Part shown: one piece after another, positions 13,882-24,746 of the stretch
Layout: each line of letters opens with the position of its first letter
Numbering within the stretch: the first letter of the stretch is position 1
Virus record (IMG/VR): IMGVR_UViG_3300044625_000495
Coordinates: 1-42,015 of that record
Reading direction: 5' to 3' (one strand)
DNA length: 42,015 bases
From: a virus
The notes under the pieces: generated by a model
Seen by the model: the letters and a program-made list of their open reading frames with translations, nothing else
What the model was told of the DNA's origin: nothing
The model's database searches: none
Translations under genes and position numbers: made by a program

Positions 13882-16006
13882 TAGCGTCTCCTTCTTCGTC
13901 CTCAGACGCCGAAACTTGAAGCGTCCAATACTTTCGATTGTTAATAGTGCTCTCGGTAATCAATCCAGAGCTTGCCCTCATAGCTCGATACAATCGGTCA
14001 ATGGAGATGTCAATAACATGTGCCGCGTCAATTATCGGCTTGACCTGACTGATTCCGTCCTGCTCGGTCAAATGATTAGTAAGCCAAGCTAAGTCATTAT
14101 CAATGTATGAAGGCCTTCCGGGCCGTCTCCTGTTGGTTCCCGGTTCGTCAGTCTCGCTGTTGTTGCTAGTTAAAACTAAATACTCGTTGCCTGAATCCAT
14201 CATGGTGACTTGCAATGGCAATGGCTTCTTAGAGTTCGTCTTGTCAACCCAAAGTTTTCGCTTGTCCGGTTCTGCCTCTGAATCAGGGCAATCTAGTTTA
14301 ATTACTTGGCGGCACGCTCCAACGATGCGACGGCCAAGTGCTTCGCCTCCTTTGTTAAGGTGCGTGACCAGAATGATGGAAGTGTTACAGCGTGTGGCAA
14401 TCTCTGCAAGAGGCTTAAAAAACAGCTTTGCCTCTTCGGGTCTCGTTGTGTTTCGGTCCGTTGCGCTGCCGCAAGTGTCTACAAAAACAAATGCTGGTTG
14501 AATACGTCTGATGCGTCTCTCAAGGTTTGCAAGGTCTTCCGGCGTGTCAAGGTTGGTTCCTGCGTAGGGGTTTGATCTGCGCGAGTTAAGTACGATTGCC
14601 TCGGGCATAAAGTCAAACTCTTTAGGCAAGGCTCCTAGCTCTGACCACTGACTGTCCGCAGCAATCCAGATTGCTCGACTTCCTGCTGGTAGAGTTGCAG
14701 GAGTGCCGTCCGGCCATGGTAAGCCAAGATAGACCCTTCGCAATAGGTCCGCGCACAATCTGGTTTTGCCTACTCCGGGTTCGCTGGCTAGTGCGGTAAT
14801 AGTGCCCCTTTGAATCCAGTTAGGCCATGTCCATTGCACTTCGGCTTGTAATGCCAGTAGGTCAGCGGCAGTAGCGTCAGGGTCTTCGTCTGTGTCTGGT
14901 ACGTCCGTAGCTATCCTTTCTGGACCCGTGTACACGTCTTCCCGTGCTGCGACCGGTGTAGACTGATTGCTCGCTACAGAGGAATTAGGCCTAAGCAGAT
15001 TGCCAAAGTTGGTCGCAACTTTTCTAGCGTCTTTGACTTTGTGAATTAGTTCACGGTCAGACCATGGTGGCGAGCACTTAGCATTCCAGTCAGACAGGGC
15101 AAGAATGGCGTCCGATTCGCTTAAGTTGAATCCTTCTACTGCGACCATGGCTGCATGAAACGCCCTGTTGTGACCACCCTGTCCTGAGATTGATGGTGGC
15201 ACTTTGGCAAGGTAAGCTTGACAACGTCCTATAGCTGTAGAATTGTTGCTGTTACGCTGACGGTCTAGATTGGCAAGCATACTATCCTGATGCTGCCACG
15301 CCGCGAGAATGGTTTCTAGTGCGGCATTGTTTCCAAAGACGGACGCTTCGCTTTTCTGAGCGGCGGTAGTTACCCATGCCAAACGGTGTGGACGCTCATC
15401 GGTTGCGCCACCTTTCCTAGCATGAGTGCCGTACAGTTTCCATATGCGAGAAGCGTTAAAAGTTCGCACGTCTACTTTCGCGCCGGGCGTTGAACACCGC
15501 TGGTCTAGTCCCGCTAACAAAGACTTGACTCTTTCCCGTGTCGCCTCGTCGTTTGGTAACAAAACCGGATAGCATAAATGCCAACCGTTTCCTGAACTGG
15601 CAACTATAGGGTTAGACCATCCTGATGCGGTCATAGTAGCTTGCACTGACGATAAAACTCTCCAAGCCTCCGCACGCTCCGCATCTGTCGCCGACACATT
15701 AGCTGGACGGGTGGGGTCGACGTCTATTAAAATCCACCGTCGCATTAATACGTCGGCATCCGTGGCGCAAGTCCTAGCTGGACTAATGCGATTAGTCGGC
15801 GTCAAGCTAATCGGTTGCGGTAGGAAATATACCCCACGGCTTGTTTGCATGTCCGCTGCGGCAGCGGCCATCGTGCGTATGTGATCGTAGTCAAACACGC
15901 CGGAGAAGCTGCCTCCGTCCGTAAACGCTCGCAGCTCTGTTATTGTGTCAGGCTCTATAAATAGCTTCAAGTAGGACTCTATCGTGCTAACTCTGTCCTG
16001 TGTCAT
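13874..16006 (-). CDS. AEP primase fused to RecA-like helicase, replication protein, 710 aa
   Basis: Probable replication initiator combining priming and unwinding. Residues 90-210 show an archaeo-eukaryotic primase core: WILIDVDPTRP with D95 and D97, SSGNGWHLCYP at 137-147, and RIWKLYGTHARKG at 187-199. A primase C-terminal-like helical region follows (about 270-335). The second half is a hexameric RecA-like ATPase: Walker A SEPGVGKTR at 408-416, Walker B FVFVDT at 506-511, and ILVTHLNKGG at 545-554. A winged-helix-like end lies at about 630-695. The start ATG overlaps the sigma stop (ATGA). No phage polymerase is present, so host polymerase is probably recruited. Confidence 0.88.
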   Translation of the reverse strand: MTQDRVSTIESYLKLFIEPDTITELRAFTDGGSFSGVFDYDHIRTMAAAAADMQTSRGVYFLPQPISLTPTNRISPARTCATDADVLMRRWILIDVDPTRPANVSATDAERAEAWRVLSSVQATMTASGWSNPIVASSGNGWHLCYPVLLPNDEATRERVKSLLAGLDQRCSTPGAKVDVRTFNASRIWKLYGTHARKGGATDERPHRLAWVTTAAQKSEASVFGNNAALETILAAWQHQDSMLANLDRQRNSNNSTAIGRCQAYLAKVPPSISGQGGHNRAFHAAMVAVEGFNLSESDAILALSDWNAKCSPPWSDRELIHKVKDARKVATNFGNLLRPNSSVASNQSTPVAAREDVYTGPERIATDVPDTDEDPDATAADLLALQAEVQWTWPNWIQRGTITALASEPGVGKTRLCADLLRRVYLGLPWPDGTPATLPAGSRAIWIAADSQWSELGALPKEFDFMPEAIVLNSRRSNPYAGTNLDTPEDLANLERRIRRIQPAFVFVDTCGSATDRNTTRPEEAKLFFKPLAEIATRCNTSIILVTHLNKGGEALGRRIVGACRQVIKLDCPDSEAEPDKRKLWVDKTNSKKPLPLQVTMMDSGNEYLVLTSNNSETDEPGTNRRRPGRPSYIDNDLAWLTNHLTEQDGISQVKPIIDAAHVIDISIDRLYRAMRASSGLITESTINNRKYWTLQVSASEDEEGDASD

Positions 16007-16488
16007 GTGCGTTCTCCAATGTATCGCCTAATGAAGTTCAACCCCAAACGTAGCCTGTTTGACGACGTGCTGTATCCTGAGCTACCAAGTAGGCTCCTTA
16101 GTGGTATATCAGATAGCTTTAATCTTACAAGGTTCGCTTGGTCGTCAGGCAATAAACTAATCGCTTCGTGAACCTTTTCTCGCATCTCTTCTTTGACGGC
16201 AAACTCTTCTGGCAGCAGGTCGCCCGAGTAATGATCCGTCTCGTCGGTATAAATAGAAACCGTGGGCGTGCACCGTTTAAGAGCTTGAGTGCGGTAGATA
16301 TATTCGACTCGCATTCGCGCTACGACGCACGTTACCCACGTCGAAAATTTTGATTTGGACTCGTCGTACAAGTGGAGCTTTTGCAGTACGCGCAGGAGAG
16401 TTTCCTGCACCCAGTCCTCAATTTCCATCGAGGCGATCGGGTATCTGTTAGCGGCCCAGCGGGTCAGGTTTATCTGGTCCTCAGTCAT
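16003..16488 (-). CDS. ECF-like RNA polymerase sigma factor, 161 aa
   Basis: Region 2 spans about residues 15-67 (ASMEIEDWVQETLLRVL, KLHLYDESKSKFSTWVTCVV and ARMRVEYIYR), and region 4 about 105-158 (AISLLPDDQANLVRLKLSD, then a helix-turn-helix ending NFIRRYI). Region 3 is missing, as in group 4 (ECF) sigma factors. ATG 16488 follows GGAGGTGACGC and overlaps the previous stop (ATGA). It could redirect host RNA polymerase to the middle or late genes, which lack obvious TTGACA-type promoters here. The recognised promoter is unknown. Confidence 0.8.
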   Translation of the reverse strand: MTEDQINLTRWAANRYPIASMEIEDWVQETLLRVLQKLHLYDESKSKFSTWVTCVVARMRVEYIYRTQALKRCTPTVSIYTDETDHYSGDLLPEEFAVKEEMREKVHEAISLLPDDQANLVRLKLSDIPLRSLLGSSGYSTSSNRLRLGLNFIRRYIGERT

Positions 16489-18309: not shown

Positions 18310-18340
18310 GGCACCGAGCAACTTTGTGCTGCTCGATGCC
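18310..18340 (-). promoter_or_regulatory. 11-bp hairpin at the start of the helicase mRNA
   Basis: In the minus-strand RNA, bases 18340-18330 pair with 18320-18310 over 11 bp (one G-U pair) around a 9-base loop. The predicted transcription start is at 18337, so the mRNA would begin inside the stem. The ribosome site ACGGAGG follows directly. Confidence 0.75.
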
Positions 18341-18343
18341 ATT

Positions 18344-18372
18344 AATATAAAAACTGTCACTAGGGGCGTCAA
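18344..18372 (-). promoter_or_regulatory. Promoter for the helicase gene
   Basis: -35 TTGACG (18367-18372), 17-base spacer, -10 TATATT (18344-18349). The predicted start is near 18337. It shares the TATATTAA core with the promoters at 22792, 23559 and 24151. Confidence 0.8.
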
Positions 18373-18381
18373 GGTGTTTTT

Positions 18382-19044
18382 TTATAGATTTTGATTTGGC
18401 ATAGATGCTGGCAATTCAAGCGTCAATGCGCTCGTTGCTCGTTCTTCCATCAAGAAGGTGCTTTCGGTTTCAACGGCTGCTGGCTCCGTTGTCGCTGCAA
18501 ACCTACGGTTCATTTCTTTCCACAGCGCGCGAACCTTTCGTTTGGCTTGGATCATGTTCCTGCTCTCGTTGAGCACGGTCATATAATCGCTGTCTAGAAA
18601 ACATTCGTATAGGTTCCTAGAGCTATCTTCCGCATCTTGAAAGCGACCGAAAGTAAAGCGTTTGAGAGATTGAACGTCCTCGTCAGTCCAGACGACGTTT
18701 GCTGAAGTAGCTCGGCGTCGCTCGCAAGTTGGATTAGTAGCTTCGACAACTGGGTCATTAGCTGTTGGTGATATTTCTACATTTAGTTCGTCACGGCAAA
18801 CTTTAGGCAAGGTCGCAACAAAGTCGGTAGCGATTGAGCGGAAGTAGCTTAGGCTTTCATTATAAGGAAGACTGTTTACAATCGCTTGCAGTGCGCGAGC
18901 GACTCGCATCCTAGCAACATTGTCAGGCTTAAACTGGCGCAAATTCTGGTCTGCGCGTCGATAAGTCATCGTGTCTTCGACTGCGCGAAGATCAGCGATT
19001 ACTGTTTGGAAGTGCTGCGTAACCATATTAATCGTGTCGTTCAT
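18382..19044 (-). CDS. Hypothetical protein, 220 aa
   Basis: ATG 19044 follows the common CAAGGAGCGTAAG ribosome site and a promoter with a leader hairpin. The N-terminal half is helical (TVIADLRAVEDTMTYRRADQ), followed by a linker and a second helical block (WTDEDVQSLKRFTFGRFQDA). The ARKVRALWKEMNRRF-like end of that block could be DNA-binding. The C-terminus is low in complexity. I do not recognise a family. Being early and next to the helicase, it may act in host takeover or replication. Confidence 0.75.
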   Translation of the reverse strand: MNDTINMVTQHFQTVIADLRAVEDTMTYRRADQNLRQFKPDNVARMRVARALQAIVNSLPYNESLSYFRSIATDFVATLPKVCRDELNVEISPTANDPVVEATNPTCERRRATSANVVWTDEDVQSLKRFTFGRFQDAEDSSRNLYECFLDSDYMTVLNESRNMIQAKRKVRALWKEMNRRFAATTEPAAVETESTFLMEERATSALTLELPASMPNQNL

Positions 19045-19064
19045 CTTACGCTCCTTGTGGTGTT

Positions 19065-19082
19065 CGGGGCTTTCGTTCCCCG
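19065..19082 (-). promoter_or_regulatory. Leader hairpin of the 220-aa gene
   Basis: CGGGG (19082-19078 on the minus strand) pairs with CCCCG (19069-19065) around an 8-base loop, beginning two bases after the predicted transcription start. Confidence 0.7.
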
Positions 19083-19090
19083 CTCTATAT

Positions 19091-19118
19091 ATATTAAGCT
19101 CCGACTGTTAGACGTCAA
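19091..19118 (-). promoter_or_regulatory. Early promoter for the 220-aa gene
   Basis: -35 TTGACG (19113-19118) and -10 TAATAT (19091-19096) with a 16-base spacer; an overlapping AATATA gives 17. The predicted start is near 19084. Confidence 0.7.
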
Positions 19119-19120
19119 GC

Positions 19121-19468
19121 TTATTTTTTAAGTTTATTTTCCAGAGCATCGACTCGCTCGCACAACGCCTTGTGCATCTTTATAATCTCTTTCAAATTAC
19201 CGCTCCAGTAGTCGTGCATCTGCCTGCTGATCCTTAGTTCCTTTAAACGGTTCAAGCGTTTTGCTTGCAATATCCTGCGCGCTTTCCGGGCGCCAACACC
19301 GTGAATAATTTTAGGCACCATGGCACGGACAACGTTGTGACGCCACTGCATAGTGGCGCCACTCCTGTTTGGTTTTTTGAGGAGCTTTGCTGCTACCCAC
19401 TTGAGAATCGTTTGAGGATTAGTTCCGATCAGTTCGGCTATCTCGCTCGTTGATACCCACGTTTTCAT
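19121..19468 (-). CDS. Helix-turn-helix protein with C-terminal coiled coil, 115 aa
   Basis: The N-terminal 28 residues form an excisionase/MerR-type helix-turn-helix (STSEIAELIGTNPQTILKWV). A basic region (KPNRSGATMQWRHNVVR, then ARKARRILQAKRLNRLK) follows, and the end is a helical coiled coil (IIKMHKALCERVDALENKLK). It is probably a small DNA-binding regulator. ATG 19468 overlaps the stop of the previous gene. No integrase is present, so an excisionase role is unlikely and regulation is preferred. Confidence 0.7.
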   Translation of the reverse strand: MKTWVSTSEIAELIGTNPQTILKWVAAKLLKKPNRSGATMQWRHNVVRAMVPKIIHGVGARKARRILQAKRLNRLKELRISRQMHDYWSGNLKEIIKMHKALCERVDALENKLKK

Positions 19469-19671
19469 GAGCCAGTAGTCCTATCGGATTCCAGTACGCT
19501 CCTACGATGAACAGAGATGCTCAGCGGGGCGTCAATAATGACTTTTACCTGATTGCTGTGTAATGGGTGCGGAATGATTCGAACCGTAAATGTCTGAGTC
19601 TCATCATGCGCCGCAACCTTAAAAACCAAGTCGTCCTCGTCTTTGTCTGGACGGATAGAAAGTACTAGCAC
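19465..19671 (-). CDS. Small hypothetical protein, 68 aa, GTG start
   Basis: GTG 19671 is chosen because AAGGAGCGTCAA lies directly upstream and because a start further upstream would overlap the 53-aa membrane gene. The product looks like a small beta protein (LVLSIRPDKDEDDLVFKVAA, then FTVRIIPHPL, then VKVIIDAPLSISVHRR). The pattern suggests a single sheet or a barrel half. Function unknown. It shares an ATGA overlap with the HTH gene. Confidence 0.6.
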   Translation of the reverse strand: MLVLSIRPDKDEDDLVFKVAAHDETQTFTVRIIPHPLHSNQVKVIIDAPLSISVHRRSVLESDRTTGS

Positions 19672-19685
19672 TTGACGCTCCTTTG

Positions 19686-19847
19686 CTACTGCGATTCGAA
19701 AACTTTCTGCACCAGCCAAACAGACCAGTACAGGGCGAAACCTAACGACAACACCAACAGCCCGCAAAAGAACGCCCAAGCGAACGTAACCGGCATCGTT
19801 GTAAAAACCGGATCAGGCCAATCTCTGTCATCGTCGTACGGCATCAT
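19686..19847 (-). CDS. Small inner-membrane protein, 53 aa
   Basis: Starts at ATG 19847, overlapping the previous stop (TAATG), with GAGGT upstream. An acidic N-terminus (MMPYDDDRDWPDP) is followed by a hydrophobic span of about 25 residues (VTFAWAFFCGLLVLSLGFAL, YWSVW) and a short end. One membrane helix is clear. It lies in an early-type operon beside a secreted protein, so it might alter the envelope or exclude other phages. It could alternatively be a small holin-like protein, but the lysis genes are elsewhere. Confidence 0.65.
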   Translation of the reverse strand: MMPYDDDRDWPDPVFTTMPVTFAWAFFCGLLVLSLGFALYWSVWLVQKVFESQ

Positions 19848-20116
19848 TATCGGTACCTCACGCATGCGTACCAACCGTTGCGTCCTCGCACTACTGACTG
19901 CTCCACAATTTGTCGCTGGCCGTAGTAGCAGCAGTTGCGAAGGGCTTGACCCGCCGAGCTAGAGGAGAAGCCTACACCCTCATACCTGTACGATCCACCA
20001 CGATGCGCCATGCGGCACTGGGCAGCAGATTGACAAGCGGACTCATGCGCGGACAAACCACCAGCCGCTTGGGCGACTGATCCGAACAATAGACAAGCAA
20101 TCAAAGATCGAATCAT
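19847..20116 (-). CDS. Small secreted Cys-containing protein, 89 aa
   Basis: The N-terminal 20 residues form a signal peptide (MIRSLIACLLFGSVAQAAGG, with an AQA cleavage site near residue 17). The mature part of about 72 residues has several cysteines and the segments EGVGFSSSSAGQALRNCCYY and VVRGRNGWYACVRYR. I associate this pattern with small exported proteins of Planctomycetes, from memory only. ATG 20116 follows AGGAGTTTCTT. The end overlaps the membrane-protein start. Secretion from an early phage gene is unusual and suggests a role in the periplasm or cell surface. Confidence 0.7.
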   Translation of the reverse strand: MIRSLIACLLFGSVAQAAGGLSAHESACQSAAQCRMAHRGGSYRYEGVGFSSSSAGQALRNCCYYGQRQIVEQSVVRGRNGWYACVRYR

Positions 20117-20285
20117 AAGAAACTCCTACTCCTCATAATTGAGGATCACACCAGCCGGGAGACGATCCCGACCGCCACCAGAGTGGCGAACCCCATTGGT
20201 GCGAATCGTGGGTGCGAGGGCTGTTCCCACAATCACGGCGGATACCTCAGACGGGCATGAGTAGCCGTCCCCTCGCCTTCCGTGG
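20117..20285 (-). other. Gap with a possible 36-codon ORF
   Basis: This 169-base gap between the SSB-like stop and the secreted-protein start has no strong gene. A minus-strand reading frame from GTG 20236 to TAG 20126 (36 residues, GAGG upstream) is open, but nothing in its product is recognisable. No promoter or terminator hairpin stands out. Confidence 0.3.
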
Positions 20286-20738
20286 TTAGAACGGCAATGG
20301 TCCCTCAGTAGGCATGTCCGAGTTGCCAGCAAGTCCAAGAATTTTTAAGTTGTGATACGTCTTGGAGCCGTCAACTTTAGACGTCTTCTGAGCACGAAAC
20401 CTGATGCCCTTGACGTTCGCCAGTGCTTTAGGCAGTTCGTGCGAAAAGAGCCTATTGTTTGCAACCGTCCACGTATTAGTAGGGAAGCCTAAAAGAAACA
20501 GATCGGAACCCAGTGAATTCGCATTAGCCTGAGTCCTTAAAAACGTCGTGGCTTCTACTCTGTGGGCGTTCTCCACGTCATAGGTCCAACGGACGATGTC
20601 GTCATCTGAACGAGGCGTCTTGGTCAATTCTGCAGACTGAATCGTAAACACCCATACGCCGTCGGTCAACGACTCTAGACCCGGCAAAAAGCTTGACGTC
20701 CGCGGAATAAAACCTTGGTCAAAATGCTCAAGACTCAT
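20286..20738 (-). CDS. Probable single-stranded DNA-binding protein, 150 aa
   Basis: Located directly after the RecT-like gene (ATGA overlap), the usual place for a phage SSB. It is a beta-rich protein (GVWVFTIQSAEL, DDIVRWTYDVENAHRVEATT, RFRAQKTSKVDGSKTYHNL) consistent with an OB-fold of the DUF669 or gp2.5-like kind. The last residues, EGPLPF, resemble the acidic hydrophobic tip (DDIPF) by which SSBs bind partners. That tip and the neighbours are the basis. The fold is inference. Confidence 0.6.
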   Translation of the reverse strand: MSLEHFDQGFIPRTSSFLPGLESLTDGVWVFTIQSAELTKTPRSDDDIVRWTYDVENAHRVEATTFLRTQANANSLGSDLFLLGFPTNTWTVANNRLFSHELPKALANVKGIRFRAQKTSKVDGSKTYHNLKILGLAGNSDMPTEGPLPF

Positions 20739-21538
20739 GCTGCACCTCCTTCTGGTTTCGCTGCTTCGTTTTCGCTAATCATGGTCATCATATGAGCAAT
20801 GACCTCCTCTGCATCTTTCTCAGTCAGTTCGTGTGTGCGAGACACGCCGTATGAATCTAGCACGACTTTCCACGCATCTGCGTCAAGCCCGGACCGCTTG
20901 AATAAGTCCGAGATCTTAAGGATAGTTGCCGATGCCAGCCTCTGCTGGACGGGAGCAGACTCGGCAACAGGGGCGACGTTTGATAGCACCTGAGCCGTCA
21001 AGTCGATCGGAATGTCCCTCGCTTCCTCTCGCGTAATCAGTCCGCGCAGGACATCTGGAAAGGCGTCGCGCAGACAAAATCCCCGTGCTCGCATCTGTAG
21101 CATTCGCTGAGGATACTGAGTCCACGGTCCGGTCTTGCCCCACAACCCAGCCCGCTTGGCATCGGCAACCGAGAATGTTGTCTTAGAACACTCGGGATCG
21201 CCCTTTCGCTTGGCGGTACAAGTAGCGACCATCTTGTCGCCTTCTCCGGTTATCTCCTCCGTCACAAATTGACATATGGAAGACGACCGGACAAGTGCGA
21301 GTGCCGTGTCTCCGTAAACCGATGGCCGACCATTGATGACAGCAATAGCTTGGAGCGACTGCATTGGCCCGAGTCCAATCTCTGCTCCATGCTGGATTGC
21401 CAGCAAACAGGACTCAGGCTTCTGCCGAAACTCTTTTGGAGCAAACTCGCTGCTCGCCACCATGGCCGCAAACCGCATCGCCTCTTCAAGGCTGTTGATC
21501 TGCAAGCCGGTGTTTGGAAACCTAGGAACCAGATTCAT
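20735..21538 (-). CDS. RecT-family single-strand annealing protein, 267 aa
   Basis: Recombinase that anneals complementary strands. The N-terminal EFRQKPESCLLAIQHGAEIG and LGPMQSLQAIAVINGRPSVY, followed by GDTALALVRSS, a TFSVADAKRAGLW segment, and WTQYPQRMLQMRARGFCLRD with AFPDVLRGL, are the RecT family signature. Length is as expected. ATG 21538 follows GAGGAGAACGAGC; a longer TTG start at 21553 is less likely. No RecE-type exonuclease was found beside it, though one of the unknown genes might act. It works with the SSB-like protein and the RusA resolvase. Confidence 0.88.
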   Translation of the reverse strand: MNLVPRFPNTGLQINSLEEAMRFAAMVASSEFAPKEFRQKPESCLLAIQHGAEIGLGPMQSLQAIAVINGRPSVYGDTALALVRSSSICQFVTEEITGEGDKMVATCTAKRKGDPECSKTTFSVADAKRAGLWGKTGPWTQYPQRMLQMRARGFCLRDAFPDVLRGLITREEARDIPIDLTAQVLSNVAPVAESAPVQQRLASATILKISDLFKRSGLDADAWKVVLDSYGVSRTHELTEKDAEEVIAHMMTMISENEAAKPEGGAA

Positions 21539-21549
21539 GCTCGTTCTCC

Positions 21550-21669
21550 TCAACGTGTTATTCGTACAGTTGCAGTTCCGTGTTCATGCTGGTAAGTCAC
21601 CGAGACTTCCGTTCGCATGGACTGACACCCCGCAACAGATGTCAGTACTAACAGAATAGTCCACTTCAT
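21550..21669 (-). CDS. Tiny lipoprotein, 39 aa
   Basis: ATG 21669 overlaps the stop of the upstream gene (ATGA). The sequence is MKWTILLVLTSVAGC followed by 24 residues, with the lipobox VAGC placing the lipidated cysteine at residue 15. The mature part is charged and beta-like (EVSVTYQHEHGTATVRITR). A short lipoprotein in an early operon resembles in arrangement the superinfection-exclusion lipoproteins of phages such as T5 (Llp), though there is no sequence likeness to claim. It is not next to the lysis genes, so an Rz1 role is unlikely. Confidence 0.65.
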   Translation of the reverse strand: MKWTILLVLTSVAGCQSMRTEVSVTYQHEHGTATVRITR

Positions 21670-22130
21670 ACAGTAGGCCAGTCTGACTGAGATTGTTTTT
21701 GAGATTCTTCGTAACGATCTAGGTGAGCCCAGCGAACTTTCTTTAGAATCAGGTCTACATCTAGGCACATGCTGCGATTGCACATGCGACCGGTGTATTC
21801 TCCGATAGTAACGTTTTCGTAGTCACACCACCTGACTAACGTTTCGAGGGCAAACATTAGCTCGTTTGCAGACCAATATCCTACCTCTCTTAGCGAGGAC
21901 GGCAGGAGTATTGGATGGATCAAGTTTGACCAGATTCTACGCCTGCTTGCATCGCACCACATAGCGGTAATCTCTTTGTCACTAAATCGCTCTAGGTGCT
22001 GCTTTAAAGATCGCAACCCGTCAATCGGAATGTGGTCTTTAAGCGGAAAATCCAAGTATGAATATTTGCTGCGAAGGACGTCTACGGCCTGCGCGACCTC
22101 CTCCGGTCTGCATGTGATTGGATCAGTCAT
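21666..22130 (-). CDS. Hypothetical protein, 154 aa
   Basis: ATG 22130 overlaps the previous stop by 8 bases. The protein is soluble and mainly helical, with IDGLRSLKQHLERFSDKEIT, then IWSNLIHPILLPSS, then VGYWSANELMFALETLVRWC. It has four cysteines, three of them within the last 60 residues (RWCDYENV, RMCNRSMCLD). No motif known to me is present. It lies in the early operon between the 102-aa gene and the lipoprotein. Function is unknown. Confidence 0.75.
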   Translation of the reverse strand: MTDPITCRPEEVAQAVDVLRSKYSYLDFPLKDHIPIDGLRSLKQHLERFSDKEITAMWCDASRRRIWSNLIHPILLPSSLREVGYWSANELMFALETLVRWCDYENVTIGEYTGRMCNRSMCLDVDLILKKVRWAHLDRYEESQKQSQSDWPTV

Positions 22131-22431
22131 TTTGGCTGGCCTCCTGAGTCATGCGCAGGTGCTTGTGAGCCAAAACGGTGGCTGTAGCCATCGTTGTTAG
22201 CGCAAGGATCTGGTGGAGCTTGTCAACAATTGACTCGGGATCACCTTGAAGACGGACGACTACATCTAAGTCCGTCAACTTGATGCGAATTGCATCTAAG
22301 TGTCCGCGCAGAGCGTGCGCCGTATCGCACATGCTCTCATTGCAGAATTGGTCAATTGCGGCCTGCTGCACGTCTCGCCAGCAAGTGTCCGGTCCGATAA
22401 CCTTGACTGTTTTTTGATATGGGAAACTCAT
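22123..22431 (-). CDS. Hypothetical protein, 102 aa
   Basis: ATG 22431 is chosen because CAAGGAGG lies upstream; a start further upstream at 22500 has no ribosome site. Predicted largely helical: CWRDVQQAAIDQFCNESMCD, then RGHLDAIRIKLTDLDVVVRL, then VDKLHQILALTTMATATVL. A hairpin and a direct repeat lie just upstream (22476-22510). No family recognised. Confidence 0.7.
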   Translation of the reverse strand: MSFPYQKTVKVIGPDTCWRDVQQAAIDQFCNESMCDTAHALRGHLDAIRIKLTDLDVVVRLQGDPESIVDKLHQILALTTMATATVLAHKHLRMTQEASQND

Positions 22432-22475
22432 AACAACCTCCTTGATAAACTGACCAAAAGGTGGCCAGCCGATCT

Positions 22476-22510
22476 CGCTCAGCCGTAGCTGAGCGGTCAC
22501 GGGCGGTCAC
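22476..22510. promoter_or_regulatory. Hairpin and 10-base-spaced direct repeat
   Basis: An 8-bp perfect inverted repeat (CGCTCAGC, loop CGTA, GCTGAGCG) at 22476-22495 is followed by two copies of GCGGTCAC at 22493-22500 and 22503-22510, ten bases apart. The repeats lie on one DNA face, as in operators. The pair precedes the 102-aa gene and may be an operator or a terminator with weak U-tract. Confidence 0.45.
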
Positions 22511-22519
22511 CAGTTGTTA

Positions 22520-22741
22520 TTAGGCTCTAGCACCGTCTGCGTAGTGGCAAGGAACAGACTTGATTGAGTCGATGACTTGACGCTCGCTGCGCTCCGTCGT
22601 TTCGGTGGCCTCGATGCTGCCCGCGCGTAGGAAAGTGGTGTCCTTTGCGGACATCTGGATTGAGCACTCGCCCGCTGCGTTGCCACGCAGGGCGTTCATT
22701 AGAGCCTGTCGGTCGATCGTGCCTAGTGGTCGGAAGTCCAT
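22520..22741 (-). CDS. Hypothetical protein, 73 aa
   Basis: ATG 22741 follows CAAGGAGCGTTTGAC and an early promoter with a hairpin leader (22766-22820). The product is small and soluble, with polar segments and two cysteines. I recognise no family. Early expression from its own promoter suggests a host-takeover role. Confidence 0.72.
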   Translation of the reverse strand: MDFRPLGTIDRQALMNALRGNAAGECSIQMSAKDTTFLRAGSIEATETTERSERQVIDSIKSVPCHYADGARA

Positions 22742-22765
22742 GTCAAACGCTCCTTGTAAAAACTC

Positions 22766-22785
22766 GTCAGACCGTTGTGGCTGAC
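22766..22785 (-). promoter_or_regulatory. Leader hairpin of the 73-aa gene
   Basis: GTCAG (22785-22781) pairs with CTGAC (22770-22766) around a 10-base loop. The first base of the stem is the predicted transcription start. Confidence 0.7.
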
Positions 22786-22791
22786 ACTCTT

Positions 22792-22820
22792 AATATATAA
22801 TCGTCCGGGTAGAAAGTCAA
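22792..22820 (-). promoter_or_regulatory. Early promoter for the 73-aa gene
   Basis: -35 TTGACT (22815-22820), 17-base spacer, -10 TATATT (22792-22797), followed by AAGAGTGTCAG. The same block, TATATTAAGAGTGTCAG, occurs at the 23508 gene. Confidence 0.82.
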
Positions 22821-22829
22821 TCAATCTTT

Positions 22830-23069
22830 TTAAGTATTTTGATTTTTTAACCAGCCGTTCCACTCAGCTACGCGCCTGTTCGCGATCTCAGTCCGAGCAG
22901 CGTTTCGCACTTTTACCAGTTTGCTGCACGCCCAATGTTCTAGCAGGGACTTGTCGGCCTGCGCGTAGCGTGGGCTATCGTGGATTGTGACGTAACCGTC
23001 GTTGTCTATTTCAACGCCTGATGGCGCCATGCGACCAAAGTTGCTGATGTGATATGTGGTCGTTTTCAT
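22830..23069 (-). CDS. Hypothetical protein, 79 aa
   Basis: ATG 23069 lies behind CAAGGAGTGTTGAC; an alternative start further upstream has no ribosome site. The product, with ISNFGRMAPSGVEIDNDGYV and RNAARTEIANRRVAEWNGWL, is soluble. It follows a structured leader (23085-23181) with no strong promoter, so it may be controlled through that RNA. Function unknown. Confidence 0.75.
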   Translation of the reverse strand: MKTTTYHISNFGRMAPSGVEIDNDGYVTIHDSPRYAQADKSLLEHWACSKLVKVRNAARTEIANRRVAEWNGWLKNQNT

Positions 23070-23084
23070 GTCAACACTCCTTGT

Positions 23085-23181
23085 AAAAAACACCGAGTGG
23101 GGGCAGCCGTACAAAGAATTCGTGCCCAACTTCCCCCCGCCAGCAACGAGCTGGCAGAAGACGGCATCCCCACCCAGTGTG
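23085..23181 (-). promoter_or_regulatory. Structured leader RNA with a long stem and inner hairpin
   Basis: In the minus-strand RNA, bases 23180-23161 pair with 23110-23090 with about 17 Watson-Crick or G-U pairs, one bulge and one mismatch. Inside is a perfect 6-bp hairpin (GCCAGC, loop TCGTT, GCTGGC, 23155-23139). A T6 run follows the 3' arm at 23090-23085, so the fold may act as a terminator. It lies 15 bases from the ribosome site of the 79-aa gene. It could be an attenuator, a leader or a small RNA. Pairing was done by eye. Confidence 0.55.
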
Positions 23182-23253
23182 TCGGTTGCGTTTTAATGCT
23201 CCCGGACGGGTGGCGGTCCCCGTTTCGACCTCTGCCGAGGCCTCGTCAGCGGG
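23182..23253. other. GC-rich gap upstream of the structured leader
   Basis: No gene is visible. There is a short inverted repeat (GGCCTC and GAGGTC, 23229-23244) and other GC-rich stretches. A promoter of the early type is not seen; the minus strand has only a CATTAA or TTAAAA -10-like stretch near 23190 with no matching -35. Confidence 0.4.
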
Positions 23254-23508
23254 TTAGGTTTCTTCGTAGACCGTTGCGTCAACCGACTTGTCGTAGTGTC
23301 GTGTTTGAGTCCAGTTGCGGCCTTCTAACGCTGCCTCAATTTTGTTTGGTTTGTCCCGTGGCAGGACTACAACCACAAGATTGCCGTAGTCGTAGATTGG
23401 CAAACGATCTGAATTTAAACTTGGCTGGTATTCAGATAGCTCGGCAAAATCAATACCCAGAACTTCGGCCGCAATTAGTTTGCGCGACTTGCGTTTCGTA
23501 TTGCTCAT
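23254..23508 (-). CDS. Hypothetical protein, 84 aa
   Basis: ATG 23508 is behind CAAGGAGTGTTAAA and an early promoter. The N-terminus is basic (NTKRKSRKL), the rest acidic or mixed with a short hydrophobic run (LVVVVLPRDKP). No family recognised. It has its own early promoter and a 7-bp leader hairpin. Confidence 0.72.
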   Translation of the reverse strand: MSNTKRKSRKLIAAEVLGIDFAELSEYQPSLNSDRLPIYDYGNLVVVVLPRDKPNKIEAALEGRNWTQTRHYDKSVDATVYEET

Positions 23509-23529
23509 TTTAACACTCCTTGTAAAGTC

Positions 23530-23554
23530 GTGTCAGGCTAAGTTGCGCTGACAC
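23530..23554 (-). promoter_or_regulatory. Leader hairpin of the 84-aa gene
   Basis: GTGTCAG (23554-23548) pairs with CTGACAC (23536-23530) over 7 bp around an 11-base loop. It begins at or within two bases of the predicted start. Confidence 0.75.
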
Positions 23555-23558
23555 TCTT

Positions 23559-23587
23559 AATATATAGAGGCCAAGTTAGGATTGCAA
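23559..23587 (-). promoter_or_regulatory. Early promoter for the 84-aa gene
   Basis: -35 TTGCAA (23582-23587), 17-base spacer, -10 TATATT (23559-23564), followed by AAGAGTGTCAG as at 22792. Predicted start near 23552. Confidence 0.75.
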
Positions 23588-23600
23588 GAGTCATTAAAAA

Positions 23601-23834
23601 TTATTTTTGATTGCAAGCTAAGTGCTCGTACATGTGTTCGCACATGGTAACGTGCCACTCGTTACGACAAAGCATTTTCATCTCTGACTCATCAGTTCCG
23701 TTTACAATAAACCCAAAAGTTTTCTTGCCCGGAAAAAACACTACGCGACCTTTCAGCAGCACCCCATCGCTCGGAGTTCCGTACATTCCTACAATGCTAA
23801 GGACCTGCATATGATGACACTTTTTAATTAGCAT
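23601..23834 (-). CDS. Hypothetical protein, 77 aa
   Basis: ATG 23834 follows CTAACAAGGAGTGTGTC. It trails the 82-aa gene by 22 bases and lacks its own promoter, so it is cotranscribed with it. The protein has several cysteine and histidine residues, including MLIKKCHHMQ and TMCEHMYEHLACNQK near the ends, which could bind a metal, but no known zinc-finger pattern is clear. Function unknown. Confidence 0.72.
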   Translation of the reverse strand: MLIKKCHHMQVLSIVGMYGTPSDGVLLKGRVVFFPGKKTFGFIVNGTDESEMKMLCRNEWHVTMCEHMYEHLACNQK

Positions 23835-23856
23835 GACACACTCCTTGTTAGAAAAA

Positions 23857-24105
23857 TCAAACCTTTCTAATCGTCAAACTAAAGCCATCAATAAAAAACG
23901 GCTGTTGGCGTGTAATTAAGCCGCACTCAGTGTTCATAACGTACTCGATTTGAATCATCTGCTTGACACTGGTTTTTTGAGTTTTTCCGGGCTTTTTAAA
24001 CTTTCCTACCGAAATCACTTTGGCGCTTACAATGCGCTCACTGCCTTGGCAGTTGATTGATACGTCGTTTCCTACTACCAAGTCGCCTGCGTTCAAAGCT
24101 TTCAT
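23857..24105 (-). CDS. Hypothetical protein, 82 aa, possible small beta protein
   Basis: ATG 24105 follows CTAACAAGGAGTGTAAG and an early promoter. The opening (LNAGDLVVGNDVSINCQGSE) and later strands (IVSAKVISVGKFKKPG, MIQIEYVMNTECGLI) suggest a small beta-barrel of the SH3 or KOW kind. Such small basic barrels often bind nucleic acid or modify host enzymes. The family is not identified. Confidence 0.72.
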   Translation of the reverse strand: MKALNAGDLVVGNDVSINCQGSERIVSAKVISVGKFKKPGKTQKTSVKQMIQIEYVMNTECGLITRQQPFFIDGFSLTIRKV

Positions 24106-24150
24106 CTTACACTCCTTGTTAGGTTCCGTCAGTCGTTTGCTTACACTTTT

Positions 24151-24179
24151 AATATAATACGAAACGGGCTGGGTGTCAA
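24151..24179 (-). promoter_or_regulatory. Early promoter for the 82-aa gene
   Basis: -35 TTGACA (24174-24179), 17-base spacer, -10 TATATT (24151-24156). The downstream AAAAGTGTAAG resembles the other early promoters, but no clear hairpin follows. Confidence 0.85.
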
Positions 24180-24436
24180 CTAGTCTTTTCTATATTTTCA
24201 AAAACTTTTTCTACTACCGACCAATACTGGTGCCCTGCTGTTCTGGCTCTACGCCTTAGGCAGTCCGAGTCAGGAATCTCTTTCAACCATGTGCGCGCTT
24301 CCAATCCCGAGTGGACATATTCCGGTGGCAACAATTCGTCGCCTGAGGCATCTAGCCACTCGCACATCCAAAGCTTCTGCGCCTTGTCAAACCAGATCCT
24401 TTTTAGGATCTGGTTATGCCACTTAAAACACGCCAT
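24176..24436 (-). CDS. Hypothetical protein, 86 aa
   Basis: ATG 24436 lies two bases after the stop of the 78-aa gene, so the two are an operon with a weak ribosome site (GGGGCAG). The product has a tryptophan-rich opening (MACFKWHNQILKRIWF, KLWMCEWLDASG) and ends ENIEKTS. Its end overlaps the -35 of the next promoter by four bases. No family recognised. Confidence 0.68.
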   Translation of the reverse strand: MACFKWHNQILKRIWFDKAQKLWMCEWLDASGDELLPPEYVHSGLEARTWLKEIPDSDCLRRRARTAGHQYWSVVEKVFENIEKTS

Positions 24437-24438
24437 GT

Positions 24439-24675
24439 TTACTGCCCCATCATTTGAAGGTGGGCCTCGGCCTGCTCCTGAGTCAGCACGATGTCGGTTT
24501 TCAACCGATGAGTCGTTGACAGCAGAATGTACGCGTGCTGCCGTCTGGCTGGGTTAAAACAGTATTGTAGTCTGACACCCGACCGAGCACGAAACGGCTC
24601 CTCAGTGCCGCCACAGCCGGGGACCCAGTGGTCCATGTTGTTAGCTACAGCCAAATTGTATTCCAAAGTATTCAT
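24439..24675 (-). CDS. Hypothetical protein, 78 aa, first early gene
   Basis: ATG 24675 follows CTAACAAGGAGTGTGAC and the strongest promoter seen here. It is the first gene to be transcribed leftward from the divergent region. The product has a GCGGTEEPFRARSGVRLQYC segment and a C-terminal helix (LTQEQAEAHLQMM). No family recognised. First-expressed phage genes commonly act on host functions. Confidence 0.75.
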   Translation of the reverse strand: MNTLEYNLAVANNMDHWVPGCGGTEEPFRARSGVRLQYCFNPARRQHAYILLSTTHRLKTDIVLTQEQAEAHLQMMGQ

Positions 24676-24690
24676 GTCACACTCCTTGTT

Positions 24691-24710
24691 AGGATCAGTC
24701 TCTCTGTCCC
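24691..24710 (-). promoter_or_regulatory. Leader hairpin of the first early gene
   Basis: GGGACAG (24710-24704) pairs with CTG plus TCCT (24698-24691, one bulged A) around an AGAGA loop. The stem starts one base after the predicted transcription start (24711). Confidence 0.6.
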
Positions 24711-24717
24711 CTGTATA

Positions 24718-24746
24718 TATATAGTGTCGGACGTTTAAGGTGTCAA
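24718..24746 (-). promoter_or_regulatory. Leading early promoter
   Basis: -35 TTGACA (24741-24746), 17-base spacer, -10 TATATA (24718-24723). It is a full sigma70-type consensus match at the -35 and spacing, and it opens the leftward early region. Predicted start at 24711. Confidence 0.88.

Follow-up and report, generated by a model that had tools for sequence, protein, structure and literature searches.

The window, the whole 42,015-base IMG/VR virus record analyzed here (IMGVR_UViG_3300044625_000495), comes from an uncultured phage in which five of six transcripts predicted to start at sigma70-like promoters fold into a hairpin whose pairing begins at +1 to +3. Hairpins in the same place recur in related phages, where they covary, and we infer that they probably shield early mRNA from RppH/RNase E-type decay. 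Start sites are inferred throughout, with +1 taken as the seventh base after the −10 element.

Window leaders were folded from +1 to the Shine-Dalgarno (SD) site, with P values taken from shuffles and combined by Fisher's method. Individual values for the five folding leaders were 0.001–0.036, and the combined P was ~1e-6 with the sixth leader, 24179, entered as P = 1 (Table 1). An earlier, sequence-only reading of this DNA had placed a stem-loop within about 3 bases of the start at five promoters; the position stands, but the stem lengths do not, being 5–10 bp within the RNA. Some of the stems run 2–5 bases upstream of +1 in the DNA, and those of leaders 24746 and 22820 each contain one bulge. 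Leader 24179 lacks a hairpin: its remnant stem is a near-copy of the GUCAG..CUGAC of its neighbor 23587, broken by one A.G mismatch. Its syntenic counterpart in a related phage (L036:2853) has a strong, intact 5′ hairpin.

All six −35/−10 pairs of the sequence-only reading were found on the minus strand exactly where it had placed them. Promoter-like matches alone were not enriched between 18000 and 25200 (9 found vs 6.7 expected), and relatives were therefore needed; the window promoters gain weight because SD-led genes follow them closely and because those relatives conserve them. The SD repeat, (A)CAAGGAGYGT, occurs in exactly seven copies (9 found vs 1.29 expected when one mismatch is allowed). 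It follows five of the six promoters, whereas the leader of 18372 carries CACGGAGG.

Relatives were recovered by a helicase search (L002/L003, 81% identity) and by primase searches, which yielded L036 (the same contig as L003), a clade formed by L037–L042 at ~53% and L047 at 48%, and further contigs at 39–58% (L043–L045, L048, and L056–L064). Promoters were then chosen blind, with folding ignored (TTGAC, 16–18 bases, TAnnnT, an SD site, and an open reading frame [ORF] of at least 35 codons). Among primase-related contigs, 23 of 25 distinct blind leaders had a hairpin that starts pairing at +1 to +4 and has an energy of −5 kcal/mol or below (4.9 expected), although one clade contributes many of these leaders and they do not represent 25 independent events. 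The first pair lay at +1 or +2 in 21, and the mean energy was −9.3 kcal/mol (−4.6 expected). The search of related phages for covarying stems that the sequence-only reading had proposed thus turned out in its favor. Three leaders are syntenic between the window and L036.

Unrelated contigs showed a weaker excess under the strict scan (10 of 26 vs 4.8 expected, including L008 and L110). T4, PaMx25, and phiKX1 do not have enough TTGAC-type promoters to be compared under strict criteria, and a looser scan was therefore used, in which 23 of 29 family leaders had a hairpin versus 6 of 38 in the comparison set (T4, 0/4; T5, 1/10; PaMx25, 0/1; other contigs, 5/23). A RecT-based set of loci, mostly from unrelated phages, served for comparison. 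A distant phage contig, L110, carries AGGTACAAAATTTGTACCT-type stems at predicted +1 positions (7639, 8729, and 13953), which suggests that the habit of placing a hairpin at the 5′ end is wider than the primase-related family. The only hits of a DNA search of phage records were Komagataeibacter phages, which matched over 150 bp in the RecT region. A DNA pattern for the clade of relatives with an AAGGA loop matched no contigs beyond the known relatives and had no hits in prokaryote genomes. One built for the leader type of the window itself gave no match, and the leaders had no match in Rfam.

The pairing itself appears to be under selection. Twelve distinct leaders of the AAGGA-loop clade can be aligned with no gaps, and they share a 7-bp helix in which 90.5% of cells are paired; four of its pairs are changed on both sides (12 double-change cells), its covariation score was reached by 0 of 500 shuffles, and slid helices pair at 19–39%. 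The helicase-gene leader of L036 (L036:7636, ATCGGGTGGC-GTTTT-GTCATTCGAT), syntenic with window leader 18372, retains all 10 pairs although five of them have changed (two on both sides and three on one). Across 27 hairpins with fixed arms, we counted 164 Watson-Crick, 20 G.U, 1 A.C, and 7 other pairs (P = 2e-5 for G.U against A.C). A DNA palindrome would give G.T and A.C equally, and hence this asymmetry points to selection on RNA. The three L036 leaders also folded 8–10 kcal/mol better in the sense than in the antisense direction (−14.9/−6.2, −11.2/−3.2, and −11.4/−1.4 kcal/mol). The blind leaders, the covariation, the G.U/A.C asymmetry, and the syntenic leaders with all pairs kept bear out the earlier suggestion of selection for structure.

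Other features of the AAGGA-loop clade were noted. Its transcripts are all predicted to begin exactly with AUG, with CATG invariant at −1 to +3. Leaderless AUG mini-ORFs were considered and rejected, as the frame from the invariant +1 AUG to the gene is not kept (judged by eye). An attenuator or terminator was likewise rejected, as the clade lacks a U-run and the stems span only ~20–25 bases from +1. Promoter spacers in this clade (L038, L039, L042, and related leaders) share GTYGCRAC, a possible operator.

Protection of the 5′ end, a probable role, is the best of the three proposed by the sequence-only reading. Both RppH and RNase E require a single-stranded 5′ end, and this accounts for stabilization by 5′ structures (PMC3997798); the T7 phi10 stem-loop raised mRNA abundance and increased reporter expression 1.5- to 3-fold in Cupriavidus (PMC6146998). 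In the scheme proposed here, a host sigma70-type RNA polymerase would start early transcripts ~7 bases after each −10. The first 17–25 RNA bases would immediately form a short hairpin, in most cases with a loop of 5 bases, whose 5′ base is the terminal one or lies no more than 2 bases from it; a brief unpaired stretch and an accessible SD site would come next. The base-paired triphosphate end would then offer no single-stranded grip to an RppH-type pyrophosphohydrolase or a 5′-end-dependent RNase E-type endonuclease, and the short early mRNAs would live longer as a result. The sequence shows hairpins that are fixed to the predicted start and conserved as RNA structure despite changing letters, with the SD sites left open. 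Such traits would be expected of a stabilizer: the hairpin lies close to the RNA 5′ end (first pair at +1 to +3, as placed from the −10), covariation and varied stems indicate that structure rather than sequence is kept, and the ribosome site is accessible by predicted openness.

Several observations weigh against this explanation. The exact start sites are predicted, and the decay enzymes of the host and the gain in half-life are presumed. One or two bases are unpaired at some predicted 5′ ends, especially in the AAGGA-loop clade (first pair at +2 or +3). Leader 24179 and an L036 leader near 2000 have no stable hairpin, which means that the structure is not essential at each gene, and such leaders were not seen in the relatives L056, L058, and L059 in the scans made. 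The G.U/A.C count is partly biased, the stems having been found by RNA folding, and over all blind leaders the difference between sense and antisense reached only P = 0.07. Moreover, the conserved AAGGA/AGGGA loop and the invariant CATG suggest an extra, sequence-specific role in that clade.

These last two features are also the main grounds for the chief rival, a partner that binds the loops. The hairpins could be read by a phage or host RNA-binding protein or by RNA polymerase (as in boxB- or put-like antitermination, or by a translational regulator), with stems free to vary, but we consider this unlikely. Each clade has its own loops and the AAGGA/AGGGA clade conserves them, the loop CAAATGA is common to L048, L008, and L014, 21 of the 27 hairpins have a 5-base loop, and paralogous leaders within one genome have the same loop on differing stems. 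In the window and L036, by contrast, loops differ (ACAAC, ACAAA, ACATT, GTTTT, AGAGA, AACGAAAG, and one 11-base loop), with ACAAC common to window leader 22820 and its syntenic counterpart L036:3640. Hairpins near the start of early phage transcripts are known from lambda boxB, which has a pentaloop, and HK022 put. Unlike at those sites, no conserved loop was found in the window phage, boxA, which in nut sites stands next to the hairpin, was not enriched (CGCTCTTTA-like sites, 7 vs 9.8 expected), and short units with their own promoters leave little for long-range antitermination. A loop-binding phage protein, another of the roles first proposed, is thus disfavored in the window phage, where loops differ, yet possible in the AAGGA-loop clade.

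Improbable, in turn, is an action on translation, in which the hairpins would insulate the SD site from upstream pairing or provide a ribosome standby site. A strong, repeated SD site does follow each hairpin by ~4–20 bases. Nonetheless, in almost all of 23 leaders, removal of the hairpin does not alter the predicted probability that the SD site is unpaired, which goes against the proposed tuning of translation by hiding the SD site. The first pair of the hairpin lies at a mean of +1.6 (standard deviation, 0.6 nt), whereas the distance from hairpin to SD site has a standard deviation of 3.4 nt, and the promoterless SD repeat at 23838–23848 has no hairpin. Hence, the hairpin goes with the RNA 5′ end and not with the ribosome site.

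It is very unlikely that the inverted repeats serve as DNA operators, at which a phage repressor or regulator would bind over the start site. The repeats do overlap the start, some of those in L036 reach upstream of +1, and the separate GTYGCRAC motif in the spacers of the L038 clade could itself be an operator. However, one phage has different stem sequences at its several promoters, breaks in symmetry take the form of G.U in the sense RNA with A.C all but absent, antisense folds in L036 are weak, and covariation preserves pairing rather than sequence. Finally, chance folding of GC-containing leaders picked after the fact, to which only the lack of enrichment of promoter-like matches lends weight, is refuted by the blind scan in relatives and by covariation, with the shuffle tests also against it.

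The sequence-only reading knew of no described phage set like this, which was too strong given the T7 class III leaders and the SAS/ESAS motifs of cluster K mycobacteriophages (PMC3203893). T7 leaders phi10, phi13, and phi17 likewise form a hairpin from +1 upstream of the SD site, and phi10 has an 8-bp stem with the pentaloop ACAAC, as in window leader 22820 and L036:3640. T7 differs, however, in using its own RNA polymerase for late and structural genes from a common GGGAGA start, and only 3 of 5 sites tested fold strongly at +1; the window phage has sigma70-like promoters, predicted early genes, and stems unrelated in sequence, and its promoters are of the −35/−10 type and not of the T7 type (TAATACGACTCACTATAGGGAGA). 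The 5′ stem-loops of Escherichia coli ompA and papA and of T4 gene 32 resemble the window leaders in their base-paired 5′ ends, the known reason for stability given that RppH and RNase E require single-stranded ends (PMC3997798; for gene 32, as cited in PMC8948821). Those are single genes with measured half-lives, whereas here a promoter-linked set across a clade is known from sequence. In cluster K, an SD-containing motif starts a subset of non-structural genes, about half of them with an upstream inverted repeat whose arms differ between subclusters (PMC3203893). The combination of a repeated SD-containing motif with an inverted repeat is therefore shared, but the repeat here is ACAAGGAGYGT and not the 13-bp GGGATAGGAGCCC at translation starts. 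Moreover, ESAS arms have a consensus sequence and, per the authors, depart from it in ways that do not support RNA pairing (PMC3203893), while arms in the window-phage family do support it. Single protective 5′ hairpins are thus a known kind; what is new is a clade that has them at almost all of its predicted early promoters. We found no phage set with a covarying 5′-terminal hairpin at nearly every early promoter in the literature, although this covers open-licence papers only and is weak evidence of novelty.

The main genes all lie on the minus strand across the window, with portal and head genes at low coordinates and a tape measure gene near 32.5–34.9 kb. Genes in the middle encode a primase-helicase-like protein, a sigma-region-2 protein, a UvrD-like helicase, and RecT. 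The six promoters sit among small genes of no known function and DNA-metabolism genes; from this gene content and the host-like promoters, we assign them and their operons to a putative early class. The phage-encoded sigma factor region 2 protein (Table 1) likely serves a later gene class.

The same operons contain candidate type I hammerhead ribozymes. The window copy has all core positions (CUGANGA, GAAA, and UH, joined by three stems), as do candidates in relatives, but it scored below the Rfam gathering threshold (19.3 bits, Hammerhead_3), as did the L058 copies (23–28 bits to RAGATH-1, best 28.1; gathering, 56.3). A strict search found one to three in most relatives, usually lying 0–4 bases from a stop codon or across it, a short way ahead of the next gene; other contigs (1.3 Mb) yielded none, and 7.1 million shuffled strand-bases yielded one. 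Prophages are known to carry hammerheads that flank single genes (PMC3088659). Downstream of the window hammerhead, a very stable, terminator-like structure based on 13 bp and ending in U6 (23180–23085, minus strand) stands just before the SD site of the next gene and is kept in L036. Hammerhead cleavage would leave 5′-hydroxyl ends, which may fit the theme of 5′-end protection.

Table 1. Predicted features of the window and hammerhead candidates in related phages
Feature	Position	Strand	Basis or value
Promoter TTGACA-17-TATATA	24718..24746	-	sequence
Promoter TTGACA-17-TATATT	24151..24179	-	sequence
Promoter TTGCAA-17-TATATT	23559..23587	-	sequence
Promoter TTGACT-17-TATATT	22792..22820	-	sequence
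Promoter TTGACG-16-TAATAT	19091..19118	-	sequence
Promoter TTGACG-17-TATATT, upstream of UvrD-like helicase gene	18344..18372	-	sequence
5′ hairpin from +2, one bulged A, loop AGAGA (leader 24746)	24691..24710	-	−6.4 kcal/mol, P = 0.036
Degenerate stem GUaAG..CUgAC, unstable (leader 24179)	24128..24144	-	0.0 kcal/mol
5′ hairpin GTCAG..CTGAC from +1 (leader 23587)	23532..23552	-	−9.5 kcal/mol, P = 0.001
5′ hairpin GTCAGCC-ACAAC-GGtCTGAC from +1 (leader 22820)	22766..22785	-	−9.2 kcal/mol, P = 0.01
5′ hairpin CGGGG-AACGAAAG-CCCCG from +3 (leader 19118)	19065..19082	-	−9.4 kcal/mol, P = 0.013
5′ hairpin ATCGAGCAGC-ACAAA-GTTGCTCGGT from +1 (leader 18372)	18313..18337	-	−14.4 kcal/mol, P = 0.002
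Repeated SD ACAAGGAGTGT	24679..24689	-	motif search
Repeated SD ACAAGGAGTGT	24109..24119	-	motif search
Repeated SD ACAAGGAGTGT, exact copy, gene without own promoter or 5′ hairpin	23838..23848	-	motif search
Repeated SD ACAAGGAGTGT	23513..23523	-	motif search
Repeated SD ACAAGGAGTGT, exact copy, promoterless gene downstream of hammerhead	23074..23084	-	motif search
Repeated SD ACAAGGAGCGT	22747..22757	-	motif search
Repeated SD ACAAGGAGCGT	19048..19058	-	motif search
Type I hammerhead candidate, directly after stop of ORF 23254-23508	23199..23253	-	predicted cleavage between 23205 and 23204
Sigma70_r2 protein	16003..16488	-	Pfam, 1e-9
Hammerhead candidates, small early genes	L036 3174-3228; L038 3916; L043 1744; L056 5060, 5364		below Rfam gathering
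Hammerhead candidates, small early genes	L058 1333, 1699, 2749; L060 2942, 3563		below Rfam gathering

Clade-wide 5′ hairpins would mean that phages protect 5′ ends as a general strategy and not by accident in single genes, and the leaders offer a natural library of portable 5′ hairpins as well as a clean case of the evolution of promoter-linked RNA structure. We tentatively raise the possibility that these phages harden all early mRNA 5′ ends, with the +1 hairpin at primary ends and a hammerhead-derived 5′-hydroxyl at internal ends after stop codons. If so, the internal ends would be unusable by 5′-monophosphate-dependent decay, and early expression in these phages would be built around escape from host 5′-end RNA decay.

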